Shown here piece after piece: positions 30,710 through 38,087 of a stretch of 64,000 nt of DNA. This stretch comes from Paramarasmius palmivorus. Lineage: Eukaryota > Basidiomycota > Agaricomycetes > Agaricales > Marasmiaceae. Numbering within the stretch: position 1 is the stretch's first letter; every line of letters begins with the position of its first letter. Made by a program: the position numbers and the translations under genes. The notes under the pieces are model-generated. The model was not told the origin of the DNA. It saw only the letters and a program-made list of their open reading frames with translations, and did not search any database. Location: positions 1 through 64,000 of the forward strand of contig JAYKXP010000088.1 of the NCBI GenBank assembly GCA_037176845.1, in the 5' to 3' direction.

Positions 30710-30716
30710 GAGGCGA
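30710..30716. repeat. Possible target-site duplication, left
   Basis: GAGGCGA, repeated in direct orientation at 38081-38087. Each copy is exactly six bases outside its 94-bp inverted repeat. Equal spacing makes chance less likely, but seven bases is short. Confidence 0.5.
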
Positions 30717-30722
30717 GAGGAA

Positions 30723-30816
30723 TCCATGTAGGGTCATTGGAATGACGCATGGATAATCCAATAGCTGTCATTGGAATGGATGGCCGGGGCTTCCTTTGCC
30801 TGGACTCATTCCAATG
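30723..30816. repeat. Left terminal inverted repeat of the element
   Basis: Starts TCCATGTAGGG and ends ACTCATTCCAATG. It contains CATTGGAATG twice in direct orientation and once inverted (CATTCCAATG at 30807-30816), so the repeat itself can fold. Its reverse complement matches 37981-38074 with nine mismatches. The internal decamers are candidate recombinase-binding sites (inference). Confidence 0.85.
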
Positions 30817-31058
30817 AGGTCGTGCGAATTTAAATAAGTTACGATATTCAGGGTAATTTACCGTCACCCTTAAATTTCCTTAAACTAGATCCCATCGACA
30901 TCACAGACAACCGACGCGTAGACGGAGCTGAGAACAAAGGGGGAAGGAGGCTATTGAACATCCGGAAACGGCGCTGGTGTAATGCTGAGTCCGAGGAGGG
31001 CGCGACAGCGTACACTGGTACTATCAAGTAGATTGACTGACACCAGGGATCATTTATG

Positions 31059-31138
31059 TAGGATATACGGTAGCCATGATTATGTCTTTGAGGTTTGAAT
31101 ATATAGGATATACGGTAGCCATGATTATGTCTTTGAGG
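31059..31138. repeat. 45-bp tandem duplication in the left arm
   Basis: The unit starting TAGGATATACGGTAGCC and ending ATGTCTTTGAGG occurs at 31059-31093 and again at 31104-31138, identical over 35 bp, period 45. Confidence 0.9.
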
Positions 31139-31390
31139 GTTTAAATACCATTTCTATGCTGCCGCTACCCTTTCTGTCATTGCGTACTCTCATTAATCAA
31201 TATCAACCAATCCCCGGAGTGTTGTTGGAGTGAGTTGTGAACACTGGAAGGTGTAAAATTAGCAGTGGACAACTACGGGGCTGTTGCGCATTATCGCGAA
31301 CCCGAAATGTTAAATCCTGCGCTTAGTATTGTTGTCGCGGCGCACGTAACTGTACAGCTGGCAGCCATGCTGAAATCCTCTTAAATTTTT

Positions 31391-31414
31391 CTTAAATCTA
31401 ACGTCAGATTTAAG
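31391..31414. repeat. AT-rich palindrome in the left arm
   Basis: Perfect 9-bp arms, CTTAAATCT and AGATTTAAG, around a 6-base spacer (AACGTC). ACTTAAATCT appears once more just downstream. Confidence 0.8.
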
Positions 31415-32723
31415 TCGGCTACTTAAATCTGGGCTTTCTTCTACTTATTAGTGCTTTCCTTCTTGGCTGACAGACGGAAGTGCACAAATTGCGCTTTCCT
31501 TTACCTGCATAATCACCAATAGTTTGAGGATGCCTAATTCAATGTAAGAGAATGACATTTTATTGATGCAGGTATACCTGCATGCTGATACCATCAGTAA
31601 AGGTCGTAGTACTAGAAACCTCACTGCAGTCCTCGCGCCAGGAAACAATGTCACGTGTTTGGCATGTGACGTGGCTGCACTTCGTTGATCCTGAAGCGTC
31701 GCCTCGTTGATCCCGAACCATCACCTTGCACATATAATGTCCGTGGCCGGCGAGCGGCACAGCCCGCTACTGCTTCAACAGTGTGCTGTATACGAACTTC
31801 AGTTCAGAGAACGCATACAATTAAATTCAGTTACGAGAAATTCTTATGCTACATCGTTGCGATAGTATTGGGCTGGAACTATCAGCCATGAAAAATTGAA
31901 ACCGTACTTGGTTTCCGATGCCCTGTTCGTCGCCCAGTGCTAGCCCCTCGGTGCGAGGATCCTTGAGGCCAAGTAACTTGGTACATTATCACAGAAGAGT
32001 ACGATGAAGCTTGTAGCACGTAGGCAGCCTTATCATGCTCAAAAACTTGATCTTGTAGAATCATGGGTGATGGCTATCAAGAATTGAGTGCGAGCCATGT
32101 TTCCTTAGACTGGCCCTACCCTTGCGCAGTAGGCTTTGAAATTTGAACGACTATCTTCAAAGTGTCGTAGCGAGTGGTTTGAATCTAGCGATTTGTACGC
32201 GCCTGTTCGTCGCCCAGCCTCCGGCTGGCTCCTCGCAGGCACGGGTGAATTTCTCTTGCCGCAAATTATCCGATCGAGCGAGACAGAACATTCAGGAGGC
32301 TTTTTAATATTCCAATGAACACCCTGCAGGTTCGTCATAAGTTCTGCTTGAGGAATCCACAGCGATTGACGGTTGCAACATGCAAATAGGGGCCTTGAGT
32401 AAAGAGGTAAAGACACTGGAATTGCTGAGGAGCCCATCAGAGGCGCTGTGTATGTGATGAAAAGGAAGAGACGATGGGCATTGGGCAAACGTTGGGTGGA
32501 ACCAGATGATCATGGTGACGGTCCAGGAGAGAAGAGAGTGGGAAAAATCAGGTGGTCCGTCACGTTTTTCATCACGTGGACATGGGTCGGGGGTGCAAAA
32601 AATGCGAATGAAACAGGGCTGTATAATAAACCCAATACTTAGCAGTATCGGGAATTTTCCTGCTATATTGGACAGGTAAGCACCCACCATGCCCTCCCAT
32701 TATGTGACGAAAGGGCTATTTTA

Positions 32724-32788
32724 CTTGTAGTTGATGCCTCTGGGATGTTTCGGCCCCGATTGGGACTACCAGAGGCATTGACTACAAG
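32724..32788. repeat. Hairpin upstream of the nuclease gene
   Basis: Arms of 20 bases (32724-32743 and 32769-32788), 18 of 20 complementary, around a 25-base loop. The left arm reads CTTGTAGTTGATGCCTCTGG and the right arm starts CCAGAGGCATTGACTACAAG. It lies about 210 bp before the nuclease ATG, so it may be in the leader or promoter. Confidence 0.8.
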
Positions 32789-32997
32789 AGAGTTGTCCTC
32801 TTGCACTATTTTCTTGACGAGATCTTGTTTTCTTACTGGTTTTACAGGACACAAGTTATACCTGCATTTATGTCCATCGTTGGCCGCATTGGTATGTTTT
32901 CATTTACGCTTATTTGTACCTGCTAATGGAACAGGAACCCTATTTAAACAGTTTTACTTGCCTCCTATGCATATCCTGTTAGACTTGGACTACCAAC

Positions 32998-34731
32998 ATG
33001 GGCGTCAAAGGATACTGGAAGGTGTGTTTTGATTCATCTCTGATTGTAGTGTTGCTGATGTTCTTCTAGATGGTTGAAGGCTCACGCCAAATGATTTCGC
33101 TACAAAAGCTTTGTGTTGACCGCGTTCGAGAAGTGCAGAAGCCCCTGATTATTGGTATTGATACTAGGCACGTCTTGATCTTTCTGTTCAATTTACCTTG
33201 CTGATGCACTTCATAGTATTCTGATCTACCGCTGCCAGGCAGGAACCAAGGCATCAATTTACGATTCTCAACGCGGACACAATGCCGACGTCAAGAGTGT
33301 TATCACAAAGCTCTCCTATTTCTCCACCTTACCCGCCTCCTTTGTCCTGGTACTCGATGGGCCGCAACGGGAGGAGTATAAACGCGGCAAGAAGGTCACT
33401 CCTGAGCCTCACTGGATGATAGATGAACTCCGTCATATCGCAGACATTTTCCATTTCCCTGTTCACCAGGTACTCTAACTATCTTGGTCTAAAACTCATG
33501 CTCATAAAATATTCTATACAGGCTCCCGGTGACGCAGAGGCAGAGCTTGCTGCGCTTGCTCGTCGTGGTATCATTGATGTCGTCCTCACGGATGATAGCG
33601 ATGCCTTGGTTCTAGGTGCTCCTGTGGTTGTACATTTGTGAGTATTAGTGTCTTCATCCAGACAGTGAGACTGATGATACCGTTCATAGCCCCGAGGATT
33701 CTAAAGACCTCGACACCGTTGCAATGTACAGCCTTCGGAACATCGAAAGGCACCCCGAAAAGCCGCTTACGATTTGCGGATCAATTCTCTTTGCAGCACT
33801 CGTTGGCCGTGATAAAGCTGAAGGTCAAGAGGTGAAGAAGAAAGGGAAAGATCACGTACGTTATACTTTAGAACTCCTTCATGAACGTCACACTGAGACA
33901 CTGGGCAGAATGAAGCTGACGGCTTTGGGCCGCAGTTGATCTATGGATTGAACAACACCGAGTTACCTGGAATGTTATCGATAATCGCCCATTCCAGTAC
34001 TGGCATCAACGACAAGGATACCATCACAGAGATGATCACGTTCAAGGAGCGGCTTCAGTATGAGCTACGTGAAAACCCATATCAATTCCTTCCCTCGAAG
34101 AAGCCCAAACTCGCCTCGAAACTAGACAAGGACACCAACTTTTGTGCTCGTGTGTTCAAGATCGCCTACAGCTTCACACACCCAATCATCTCCGATACTA
34201 ATAAAGATCAAATCGGTACCTCTTGGTCGTACACCTTACTTCCAACCCTCAAAGCCCTTGTAGCACGGTGCGAGGACCTGTTTCATTGGAAGCGGCTTAA
34301 CGTGATGGAGAAGAACTTCTCTCGCTTGTTTTTCTCCGATTTCTGTGTCAAGTATTTGACAACGGTGAGTGTTTCTCTTCTGATCATTCTCAACTTTGCT
34401 CAATGGTATCTAGATTGCCTTTCCTGCATTCTCGGCACACGATACCCTTTATCGGGTGCGAATTAATTGCGGTGCACTTGACTGCATATTCGACAAGTCA
34501 GCAACCAATAGGACGATTAGCGTTTGGGTTCCATCTGCTGTTGCCGGCCACTTTGTCGAGGAGCTTCAAGCGCTCTATCGAGACCTTGGCGGGAAGCGCT
34601 ACCAAACTCCCGGTAATCCACAGAAGCGCATTTTGGTCAGTGTTTCTTTACCGACGGTTTTCGGTTTGCTGATATCATGTGGTCAGGTCAAGAAACACCT
34701 CAACCTATTGGGTGTAACATCCTCAAAGTGA
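32998..34731 (+). CDS. XPG/FEN1-family structure-specific nuclease, 459 aa
   Basis: Eight exons (32998-33021, 33070-33167, 33217-33469, 33522-33637, 33690-33855, 33909-34364, 34414-34635, 34687-34731) total 1380 nt and stay in frame. The intron at 33168-33216 appears to be GC-AG; the others are GT-AG of 48-53 nt. The start MGVKGYWK is the family N terminus, which must be free to contact DNA. Predicted acidic metal ligands are all present: D39 (IGIDTS), D88 (VLVLDGP), E131 and E133 (APGDAEAELA), D150 and D152 (LTDDSDALVLG), and D223 (EADGFGP, at the helix-hairpin region). The C-terminal third (from about 315) resembles the less conserved tail of GEN1-like fungal proteins. It probably cuts flaps or branched DNA in the nucleus. 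Lying inside the inverted repeats, 239 bp ahead of the recombinase, it is read as an element protein rather than a host repair gene. Confidence 0.88.
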
Positions 34732-34970
34732 TCTGTAATTAGCCCATTGCGTATTTCTTTACATCTTGTACCATATCTCCAGTATCCTTCTTGTTTTTGT
34801 ACATGGTTTTATTGTAATTCATATGCTTTAAACTCCACATTTTGTGATACTCGTGAAATGCAATAGCAATGTACTGGTGCAGTATTCGTAATGTAGAAAG
34901 CGGCAAATGTTTAGCGAGACGAGACAAGATGAAACAAAATGGAGACCCCTAATACCCCTTGCCTATTCCA

Positions 34971-37357
34971 ATGCCCAAGACAACGACGAAGGCAGGACGC
35001 CCAAAAGCAAGCACAAAGAAGCCCACTGGAAGGAAGAAGAAGGAGACCAAGCCAATCGACGAGAAAACCTTCTATGAATTCACCGAAGAGGCGACTAAGC
35101 AAAAGAAGAAGCACACGAAAGCTGGAAACACAACCACGGCATATGATGGACGTGTTAAGCAAGCTCAAGAGTGGCTTGCGAAGTTCTGTACTGCAGTTGG
35201 AAAGGTTGAAGATGCAAGGAAGGCGCAGATAGATGCACTCCTTGAAGAGAGCCAGGACGTACTGGATACTTTACTGGATCGTGAGGACACCAGCTCAGAA
35301 TCTACTCATGAAACATTACCAGACAACTTTGCTGCCTCATTTGATGGTCCTCCATCCAATTCAACCCCGAAAGCAATTGCAATGTTTCTGTACATTAAAT
35401 GCTTCGAAGAAGACAAAGGAAAATCTACCGCATGGCAAATCTACTCTGCGATGCGACGGCACTACGACGATCTGTGAGTATTTTCCTTCGGACTTCTTTT
35501 GACACAAATCAGCTTGACACAAATGCTTGCAGTGATGGAGACACATACCGAGGCCCATGGCGTGAAGATAGAGACAAGAAGATCTGGGTCGGCAATCCAA
35601 CAAATGCGGCACTAGTACAAGACATGGTCAAAGCCTGCAAGAACAAAGACGGAGAAACAGAGCGTACTCACTCAAAGGCTATGTCATTTGAAGACATGGT
35701 TGCACTGTATGAGTGGTCGTGCAAGATGTGTCCTGATAATCTTCCAGTAACGGATATGGAATCTCTCACGCTGAAGACAGAACATCTTTCCTTTCGAGCA
35801 TTCATCAGCATCGCATTCACGCTATGGACAAGGTCTGTCTGCTCACCTATACTCTGCCTTTCAACTCTAATGCATTCTATTAGGAACTGCGAAACTTCTA
35901 GCCTCCGGGTAAAGAATGTTGACCGCAATCCTGAACCACGACTTGGAGCAACACCACTCGATCCCAAGTGTATCGTCTTTAGACTCTTCAATCGAAAGGG
36001 CTGGCAAAGGGAGAGCATCAACTCAATGGTGCGTTGATGAATTATATCTAAACGACAGCTGGTGATGTTTTGTTCACCTAGGCCACAAGTACCATATCTA
36101 CTCCTCTCCGAAAAATCCAGCAACAGATGCTTACCAGCGTACTCTTGTCTGGATGGATCACCTCGAACGTCAAGTCTACAAGCGGCACCTTGAACCTGAT
36201 GACTATCTGTTTCCGACTATTGGTGCTGGCGGTGCTGTGCAAGCAGCAGTTCCTGTGACTGCCGATACCGTACAGAAGAAGGTCAACGAATACGCCAAAC
36301 TAGCAGGGCTTCCGGGAGCTGGGAAATATACTACGCACTGTTTTCGGTGTGGAGGTGCTCAATATCGATGTATGTGGGCCCCTCCCGGTGAGCGCTGGCC
36401 ACTGACGGTTATTCGATGGTGGGGAGGTTGGGCACCAGGTGAAAAGGTACATCTTTCCGTCTGCTTCAACTTAGAGCAGTAGCTGAAACATCTTTCCAGC
36501 ATAATACACTGATGCTTTACCTGCTCGATGAGCTGCACACATATGAAACAGATTACAGCGATGCAATGTGTCCCATCAACCTTCAGAAAGATTCATCATT
36601 TCTCAGAGAAGCAGCTGCTTTAGCTCCGCTAAGGGCAGACGAAGCACGCATCATGCTTTCAGAGGCCATTGGTCAAATCACCCAAGTTATCCATGCTCAT
36701 GCCCATCACCACTCTTTCTCTCAGACTTCTCAGACGACGATGGCCGGAGCACCTTTACATCCAGTGCAACCAGTATCAATTCACTCGGCACATCCGGTTC
36801 CCATCAATTCATCTATCATTGTACCACCGCTCTCCTTTAATCCAGCTGCAACTGGGTATCAGACCTATTCCACAGCACCTTCACAGTCGACTCCAATTCC
36901 AGACGCCGAATTCTCAATACGCGTACCACGGATAACCTGCGGACGAGATGTGGCATGGGAGCAAGTTATCAAAGACTGGGATCAGCCAGACCCGACCCGG
37001 GAACACATGTACGCACTCAAGGACTGGAAGCAGGAGTGGATTGATCATCCGGCCTTCGCAATGCAATATCGTGATCGCCGTAAGATTGCCCTAGAATTTG
37101 TTGTCCGGTGCGAGATTCACTTTTTCCGAACTTCACTTTTTTACTAACTCACCATTCACAGCTTTGGTCGTGACAAGGCCCGGTTCTGTGCTGCATACCC
37201 TCAGTACAAGAAGGGTATCACCGCGCTCAAGAAGGCCATCCACTCGAAGCAACTGCAGGAGAACCGGGTCAAGTCAAGATGCAGCAAACTGAGGCGTGCA
37301 TCAGCAAGTGCCAGGTGCGCCGGCGGTGACAACCCATCAGACAGTATGAGTGATTAG
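34971..37357 (+). CDS. Tyrosine recombinase, about 702 aa
   Basis: Six exons (34971-35473, 35533-35832, 35884-36028, 36090-36446, 36500-37107, 37162-37357) give 2109 nt in frame. The N terminus is very basic (TKKPTGRKKKETKP), a likely nuclear signal. Residues about 55-215 form a helical core-binding part. The catalytic set is complete: R268 (TRNCETSSLR), H399 and R402 (HCFR), W430 (RWWGGWAPGE) and Y442 (LMLYLLDEL). A Ser/Thr/Pro-rich linker and a basic C-terminal segment (GRDKARFCAAYPQYKKG) follow. The exon 3/4 junction is irregular. The usual TAG acceptor (36081) would shift the frame, whereas AAG at 36089 keeps it, so either a weak acceptor is used or one base is lost. The spacing R-x130-HxxR-x27-W-x11-Y fits the tyrosine recombinase fold. 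It is not a recognisable DUF3435 Starship captain. Confidence 0.87.
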
Positions 37358-37485
37358 GTCTAGTTCATCGAATCATCTTGGACGTTACTACTTTAGCACT
37401 ACCTACTAATACTGACCTTTAATTGTGTATATATATCACGAGTGTCATCCGTACATTAGTCGCTACGCTAGTATACTACGCTTAT

Positions 37486-37605
37486 TTGTCCAATGCAAAG
37501 TCATTATGCAGTGATGAATAGAACTGATTAATCAAGCCATATATATATTAGTGGTAGCTACTACACCAATCTGTCCGAATGCAAAGTCATTATGCAGTGA
37601 TGAAT
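37486..37605. repeat. Short direct repeat in the right arm
   Basis: TGCAAAGTCATTATGCAGTG plus flanking bases (about 34 bp) occurs at 37486-37519 and 37572-37605, 86 bp apart, nearly identical. It lies between the recombinase stop and the right inverted repeat. Confidence 0.85.
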
Positions 37606-37980
37606 CCCTTGAGTCCCCAATTTCCGTCCAGCTATCGCAATTTCCGTCCAGCGATCGGATTTGGATTCCCTTTTCAAACAGCCGGACGACGAAATCTGCA
37701 AGGATCTGACACGCGAGGAACATCCGATGGTTTAGGGGAGGAGGAGCGGGCACGCGAGCCAAGCGACCATAAGCGGTCGGTTGCGGTCCCCTTGTGGGAA
37801 GATGGCCTTAAATCTTTCGACATAAGTAAAATAAACTGTACAGAATTGAATTGAACGTAGCTATATTACGGCTTTTCTTATTACTATTGGTAATAATCTG
37901 ATGTGCCTCATGTTCAATCCGGCTCAATTCCATTTTGATAAAGGTACCGATTAGTCATTACGAAAAAGGTACGGGAAGCG

Positions 37981-38074
37981 CATTGGAATGAGTCCGGGCA
38001 ATGGAAGCCCCGGCCATCCATTCCAATGAGATCTATTGGATTATCCATAGATCATTCCAATGCCCCTACACGGA
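37981..38074. repeat. Right terminal inverted repeat of the element
   Basis: Starts CATTGGAATGAGTCC and ends CCCCTACACGGA. It is the reverse-complement partner of 30723-30816 (85 of 94 identical). It carries the same three CATTGGAATG-type decamers. Confidence 0.85.
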
Positions 38075-38080
38075 CTATTG

Positions 38081-38087
38081 GAGGCGA
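38081..38087. repeat. Possible target-site duplication, right
   Basis: GAGGCGA, six bases outside the right inverted repeat, matching the left copy at 30710-30716. Confidence 0.5.

Follow-up and report, generated by a model that had tools for sequence, protein, structure and literature searches.

A Crypton-like element pairing a tyrosine recombinase with a GEN1/Yen1-like nuclease, probably nested in a short non-autonomous transposon of Paramarasmius palmivorus

Starships are fungal mobile elements with a DUF3435 captain and a large cargo. Tyrosine recombinases make Holliday junctions and normally resolve their own. The Holliday junction is also a substrate of GEN1, and CtGEN1 is a junction-selective nuclease, according to PMC4270448. 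Cryptons, as described by Kojima and Jurka (2011, PMC3212892), have 6-bp terminal direct repeats and no inverted repeats; CryptonF elements are given 4–6 bp terminal direct repeats and no long inverted repeats, some of them carry a C48 peptidase, and MarCry is a Crypton joined to a DDE element. For the KDZ group of transposons, Kojima (2025, PMC12730594) states that Kyakuja elements produce 7-bp duplications and that Kyakuja-1_LB and Kyakuja-2_LB have CA..TG termini without inverted repeats. Here we describe a locus of the basidiomycete Paramarasmius palmivorus, at positions 30717–38080 of a 64,000-nucleotide stretch (the window: assembly GCA_037176845.1, contig JAYKXP010000088.1, forward strand), where two mobile elements are in all likelihood nested: a short, non-autonomous outer element of the KDZ (Kyakuja) type, and within it a 6988-bp Crypton-like inner element with NTAWGT cores, which carries a tyrosine recombinase and a GEN1/Yen1-like nuclease and would move by the mechanism proposed below.

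The boundaries of the inner element are placed by other copies of the outer one. Copies on five contigs (C83, C84, C198, C50 and C33; the window lies on C88) match 30717–30839 at 95–100% and pass directly to the sequence from 37822 onward (29–39 bp, 83–100%), C83 being identical to the window across 123 and 39 bp, and C92 likewise passes through the junction, within its flipped interior. Read-through was thus found in 6 of the 7 copies examined, C42 being too short. ATAAGT occurs once in each of the six and twice in the window, and the 6988 bp between the junctions, with both genes, are missing from the short outer copies. As these six outer-type copies read through with one ATAAGT, they represent paralogous empty sites. 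The features of the inner element are as follows.

30840–37821, plus strand: body of the inner element, a Crypton-like tyrosine-recombinase transposon (6982 bp; 6988 bp with one core)
30834–30839, plus strand: left recombination core ATAAGT (single copy in the six empty-site paralogs; NTAWGT at five left ends)
37822–37827, plus strand: right recombination core ATAAGT (ATAWGT also adjoins the right end in both the C54 pair element and C54:14105–14859)
30840–30884, plus strand: left terminus, TACGATATTCAGG... (matched at C10, C98 and C54:14105; by pattern at C34)
37732–37821, plus strand: conserved non-coding right terminal region ending in CTTAAATCTTTCGAC (84% identity with the C54 pair element, and 85% with C54:14105–14859 across 41 bp)
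31391–31414, no strand: perfect 9-bp inverted repeat with a 6-bp spacer, CTTAAATCT-AACGTC-AGATTTAAG (similar in C10, C54:14105–14859 and the C54 pair element)

These ends recur elsewhere in the genome. TAWGT precedes all five left ends with at most 2 mismatches, and ATAWGT follows the three right ends examined (3/3); two of seven left-end matches (C225 and C389, with 3 mismatches, mutually identical and with a core other than TAWGT) were dropped from the count, and a reversed-pattern control for the left end gave 1 match. The right terminus ...CTTAAATCTTTCGAC is found again at two places, C54:14859 and (4 mismatches) C54:306769. Outside the core, 4–11 of 30 bases are shared by four inner-end loci. 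C54:14105–14859 is a gene-less copy of 755 bp with both inner ends, in which the left core reads CTATGT and the right core ATATGT, 5 bp being shared. In the second gene pair, on C54, the match to the non-coding sequence of the window continues until 37828 and no further on the right, and therefore the inner boundary is independently placed. Inspection of the inner termini revealed no terminal inverted repeats. Since the cores are conserved and non-random, inverted repeats are absent and the empty sites are paralogous, the ends and cores fit a predicted Crypton-like, site-specific mode of insertion; the inverted repeat at 31391–31414 is a possible, putative recombinase binding site. Ten further open reading frames within the inner element gave no Pfam match at E<=0.1. 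The inner element also holds a 45-bp tandem duplication (93%) at 31055–31144, upstream of the nuclease gene. Just past the end of the second inner element, C54:306806–307753 contains 19 motifs of the type CTA[GT]NTAGA; this repeat region has no second match in the genome, and may be the subterminal part of a different transposon into which the element inserted. Inverted-repeat searches across the C54 and C29 pair regions gave no result.

The two genes belong together beyond the window. Five recombinase loci were found in the P. palmivorus genome, and a nuclease adjoins all five on the same strand, with the nuclease first in the window and at C54:301930–306384 and the recombinase first at C29 (twice) and C15. 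The recombinases of the latter three were weak in the first search (5e-5 to 7e-4) and stronger with a profile (1e-10 to 2.5e-9). This reversed-order lineage (C29:41995–46702, C29:~122000–118000 and C15:512714–508200) has the recombinase motif HSFRRGG, and the first C29 recombinase and that of C15 end in a Cys-rich CPMCGRSCxCWGR. Four stand-alone nuclease loci (C3, C153, C10 and C14) have no recombinase within 3.3–3.8 kb each. Among the best 120 of 138 recombinase relatives, three are single annotated proteins with XPG_I (Tetrapyrgos, Agrocybe and Suillus), which could be genuine fusions or merged gene models. In other Agaricomycetes, at least nine recombinase relatives share species and contig, the latter judged by proxy, with a nuclease relative: six in Dendrothele bispora (6 of the 8 listed there) and one each in Flammula alnicola, Stygiomarasmius scandens (locus tags 012575/012574) and Gymnopilus dilepis (012439/012441); this count is a lower bound, with 120 of 368 nuclease matches listed. 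A compact mobile element pairing a tyrosine recombinase with an XPG-superfamily nuclease had been proposed in an initial annotation of the window, which would have given up the idea had the two genes never been linked elsewhere; the pair does recur, and it is a real two-gene variant of Crypton-like elements. The titles and abstract beginnings listed for the open-licence literature yielded no description of a tyrosine-recombinase element with a GEN1/XPG nuclease, an absence that is not proof.

The nuclease gene was modeled as follows.

32998–34731, plus strand: GEN1/Yen1-like nuclease gene (model; 8 exons, 459 aa)
32998–33021, 33070–33167, 33217–33469, 33522–33637, 33690–33855, 33909–34364, 34414–34635, 34687–34731, plus strand: nuclease exons (model)

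The window nuclease matches the Pfam domain XPG_I (E 7.4e-15), with XPG_N below the cut-off (0.16). Its best solved relative is GEN1 of Chaetomium thermophilum (6e-19, vs 4e-06 for FEN1), and a profile of 25 nuclease relatives spans most of GEN1 (2.6e-93), leaning to it because proteins named GEN1 are among the 25. For the predicted fold of one relative, P0121 (pLDDT 80.6; not the window protein), the top six Foldseek matches are all GEN1. By window sequence, relatives' profile and predicted fold of P0121 alike, the nuclease is nearer to GEN1 than to FEN1, EXO1 or XPG, and it is classed as a GEN1/Yen1-like enzyme and predicted Holliday-junction resolvase; a FEN1-like nuclease, as first annotated, is ruled out by the GEN1-best sequence and fold matches. 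In a tree of 70 sequences, the 29 GEN1 proteins of the host type, a label given to long proteins with PF18380, lie on one side of a branch (100/99), and the window nuclease groups with 12 others, 8 of them pair-linked or fused (100/99).

The recombinase gene follows on the same strand.

34971–37357, plus strand: tyrosine recombinase gene (model; 6 exons; C-terminus weakly GCR1_C-like in relatives)
34971–35473, 35533–35832, 35884–~36030, ~36082–36446, 36500–37107, 37162–37357, plus strand: recombinase exons (model)
36004–36030, plus strand: frame break relative to relatives, at the end of exon 3

It matches the annotated P. palmivorus protein VNI00_014824. The protein has the catalytic residues R, HxxR, W and Y, which are conserved in relatives, and the predicted fold is Cre-like. 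Pfam returned no recombinase domain over the cut-off for the window protein, Phage_integrase being below it where scored, and a sequence search of the PDB with the recombinase or its profile returned no recombinase. DUF3435 matches 16 of 51 recombinase relatives weakly (best 2.8e-4, the scores shown all being under the cut-off), and has no match at E<=1 in the public model P0001, which is shorter than ours by 20 residues at the end of exon 3. There, one frame reads KGWQRE, and the KGEHQLNG of the relatives lies in a different one; the frame is therefore broken relative to relatives, and the window copy can probably no longer make an intact recombinase. The claim that the exons join exactly in frame thus fails for the recombinase; the nuclease model is open through its eight exons, with intron 2 (33168–33216) apparently using a GC-AG donor. 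The active-site set, said to be full in both, is nearly complete in the nuclease, in which the first Glu of GEAEAE is Asp and the relatives' GGDY consensus is GRDK. Because of the broken frame and these two unusual motif positions, the window copy is probably not autonomous.

The outer element comprises the following features.

30717–38080, no strand: outer element, split into 30717–30839 and 37828–38080 (same ends in C198, C50, C33, C92 and C42)
30723–30816, plus strand: left 94-bp inverted repeat (CATTGGAATG/CATTCCAATG motifs common to larger elements)
37981–38074, minus strand: right 94-bp inverted repeat (pairs with 30723–30816)
30710–30716, no strand: left 7-bp target site duplication GAGGCGA (same letters as 38081–38087)
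38081–38087, no strand: right 7-bp target site duplication GAGGCGA (same letters as 30710–30716)

As the initial annotation had noted, the two 94-nt arms are 85/94 identical without gaps, far beyond chance (47/94 being the best among 100 Markov-resampled pairs of 300-bp end segments), and GAGGCGA sits at equal distance, 6 bp outside either arm. What it made of them does not stand. It took the long repeats for the ends of the gene pair and judged that the layout fits no known element, having missed the inner junctions; the pair in fact ends, like Cryptons, in short direct-repeat cores, and the long repeats are dispersed independently of the genes. The empty site that it predicted for the outer element would read AAAGGATGAGGCGAACGTACTG. 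A left-end search of the 68.3-Mb assembly gave 17 matches, and five two-ended copies of 116–675 bp (C198, C50, C33, C92 and C42) lack both genes, share the termini GAGGAATCCATGTAGGG... and ...CCCTACACGGACTATTG, and have 7-bp duplications of their own (AAGTACC, GATGTTT, TTCTGCT, ATCTTCC and GATTCTG), so that all six two-ended copies, the window included, are flanked by one. The right end of the outer element was not found at C83 and C84. C234 is a near-identical copy (98.5–99.5%) that terminates within the element, and was counted as a second copy of the window locus rather than as an independent element. In the short copy C92:61423–62097, the interior is flipped relative to both ends.

The outer element is non-autonomous, with no KDZ transposase inside it in the window among the matches listed, and it is probably of the KDZ (Kyakuja-type) kind. 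Allowing at most 3 mismatches, a pattern search found 48 ends or chance matches, vs 8 in the control. Seven ends with at most 2 mismatches (C65, C111, C114, C155, C199, C277 and C308) resemble, and are distinct from, the window family; of the five testable, four have a KDZ match (PF18758) inside on the expected strand, at 12.7 kb (C277 and C114), 13.2 kb (C65) and 14.1 kb (C111), and C199 has none among the matches listed. Left out were C155 and C308, where the contig stops before 12.7 kb, C234, and all ends with 3 mismatches. No KDZ match was listed at that distance from C40, C55 and C115 (2 mismatches, another shared sequence) or from the window-type single ends C59, C83 and C84, and with these six added the count becomes 4/11. 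By chance, ~0.003 KDZ matches are expected for each end within 2 kb of a single strand, given 178 KDZ matches in 68.3 Mb, a minimum obtained by scoring 150 of 365 candidates. As related ends have KDZ matches inside and Kyakuja elements produce 7-bp duplications, the outer element is most likely a non-autonomous KDZ transposon mobilized in trans. C114, C199 and C277 are larger elements that start with a related end and contain many CATTCCAATG/CATTGGAATG motifs; they have dense CATTCCAATG repeats and an opposite-strand open reading frame with a common RGG-rich C-terminus, and may belong to KDZ elements at least 13 kb long. Genome-wide, exon by exon, at least 178 KDZ and at least 105 Plavaka (PF18759) matches indicate a heavy load of such DDE transposons.

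Under the nested arrangement, the outer element would have been transposed in trans by a DDE-type KDZ transposase. The inner element would be bounded by the 5–6 bp core NTAWGT, and its recombinase would excise it by recombination between the two cores, freeing a circle whose junction is predicted to read TTTCGAC-ATAWGT-TACGATATTC, and would insert it at another genomic NTAWGT site. Strand exchange at each event would pass through a Holliday junction, which could be completed by the recombinase or by a GEN1-like enzyme; the nuclease of the element would probably cut the junctions that the recombinase leaves unfinished, such as those between unlike donor and target cores. The mismatched cores of C54:14105–14859 fit such a role at imperfect targets, without proving it. 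A bolder version, which we hold possible and rather doubtful, is that the recombinase need perform the first strand exchange only and the element's own GEN1-type resolvase finishes it, making partly mismatched target cores usable, as at C54:14105–14859, and that this is widespread in mushroom-forming fungi.

Several observations count against the nested arrangement or parts of it. Neither an excision product nor a polymorphic empty allele nor any activity has been observed, the empty sites being paralogs; these, except C83, differ from the window by 5–17% in the compared stretches and hold extra sequence near 37850 that the window lacks. Both inner ends are present in two copies only (the window and C54:14105), and the cores of the latter are unequal. 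The C54 pair has no recognisable left inner end, and the recombinase-first pairs (C29 twice, C15) have no such ends in the sequence examined. Near several other outer-type ends, no KDZ is among the matches listed. GCR1_C is weak in the recombinase relatives (5/51 with E<1, 0.041 being the best; both scores shown, for C-terminal residues 606–659 and 614–667, fall under the cut-off), no match being listed for P0001, and the recombinase frame of the window is broken. Finally, the window nuclease is on a long branch of 2.61, which makes its position less sure, and the pair-linked or fused nucleases are not one clade, 4 of 13 falling outside the group of the window, with 7 changes.

Other explanations are less probable. 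That the pair and the 94-bp repeats form a single two-gene element, moved by its recombinase, is the least probable of them and very remote: the repeats and the 7-bp duplication do surround the pair, but the same ends occur without it in five two-ended copies, related ends belong to elements that contain a KDZ match, the inner junction is read through in six copies, and the C54 pair stops at that junction and has other flanks. The pair-less two-ended copies and the read-through rule out that the gene pair ends in these inverted repeats. It is also very improbable that a DDE enzyme supplied in trans made a staggered cut and left the 6-bp direct repeats as ordinary target duplications. Their length fits some DDE elements, IS3EU making 6-bp duplications according to PMC12730594, but the inner ends show no terminal inverted repeat, and random target duplications are ruled out by the conserved core, with TAWGT at all five left ends counted. 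Very improbable, too, is the converse history, in which the short copies are deletion products and the outer element lost the pair between the ATAAGT repeats by slippage or recombinase excision. A deletion between direct repeats would yield the same structure as an empty site; however, inner ends with NTAWGT are found elsewhere without the outer flank, and therefore insertion elsewhere is independent of the outer element, while the recombinase-excision version is the nested model reversed.

A separate question concerns the role of the nuclease, which might be a passenger without a part in recombination, kept for example because it repairs gaps or flaps after excision, or because it acts against competing elements or the host DNA. 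We consider this unlikely, with a real residual chance. It would agree with the four stand-alone GEN1-like loci that lack a recombinase nearby, with the fast evolution of the window nuclease and its variation at two motif positions, and with the fact that its function here is predicted from sequence. On the other hand, five recombinase loci in two gene orders keep the nuclease adjoining, annotated fusions exist in three genera, and tyrosine recombinases make Holliday junctions, the substrate of GEN1.

If the nested model with its resolvase is true, the labour would be divided in a new way, the transposon bringing along a dedicated resolvase of eukaryotic type. Crypton integration becomes directly testable, as cores, empty sites and a small gene-less substrate are now defined, and the pair may account for some mushroom genes whose sole annotation is 'PIN domain-like' or 'DNA breaking-rejoining enzyme'. 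Elsewhere in the window, two pairs of long same-strand repeats (12666–16000/40207–43749 and 21797–25854/57087–61985; ~78–82% identity) may be duplicated segments or gene families.

Compared with known systems, the outer element shares with Kyakuja and the KDZ group the 7-bp duplications and, through its related ends, KDZ matches inside; in contrast to the Kyakuja elements as the cited text presents them, it has GA..TG termini, 94-bp inverted repeats and no transposase inside. The inner element resembles Starships in having a fungal tyrosine recombinase whose relatives are weakly DUF3435-similar (16/51), but it is a 6.99-kb element of Basidiomycota with two recognised genes and no large cargo, and no DUF3435 captain domain exceeds the cut-off in P0001 or among the relatives' scores shown. 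Its predicted nuclease is like GEN1/Yen1 in that GEN1 provides the closest solved structures by sequence and fold, the C-terminal part of the relatives included, and unlike it in lying outside the single clade of host-type GEN1 proteins. With CryptonF as described in PMC3212892, a paper whose text has no word beginning with 'xpg' or 'nuclease', the inner element has in common a tyrosine recombinase, possibly with a GCR1_C-like C-terminus, and ATAAGT/ATAAGT direct repeats without long inverted repeats, and it differs from CryptonF by carrying a second gene, that of a GEN1-like nuclease.

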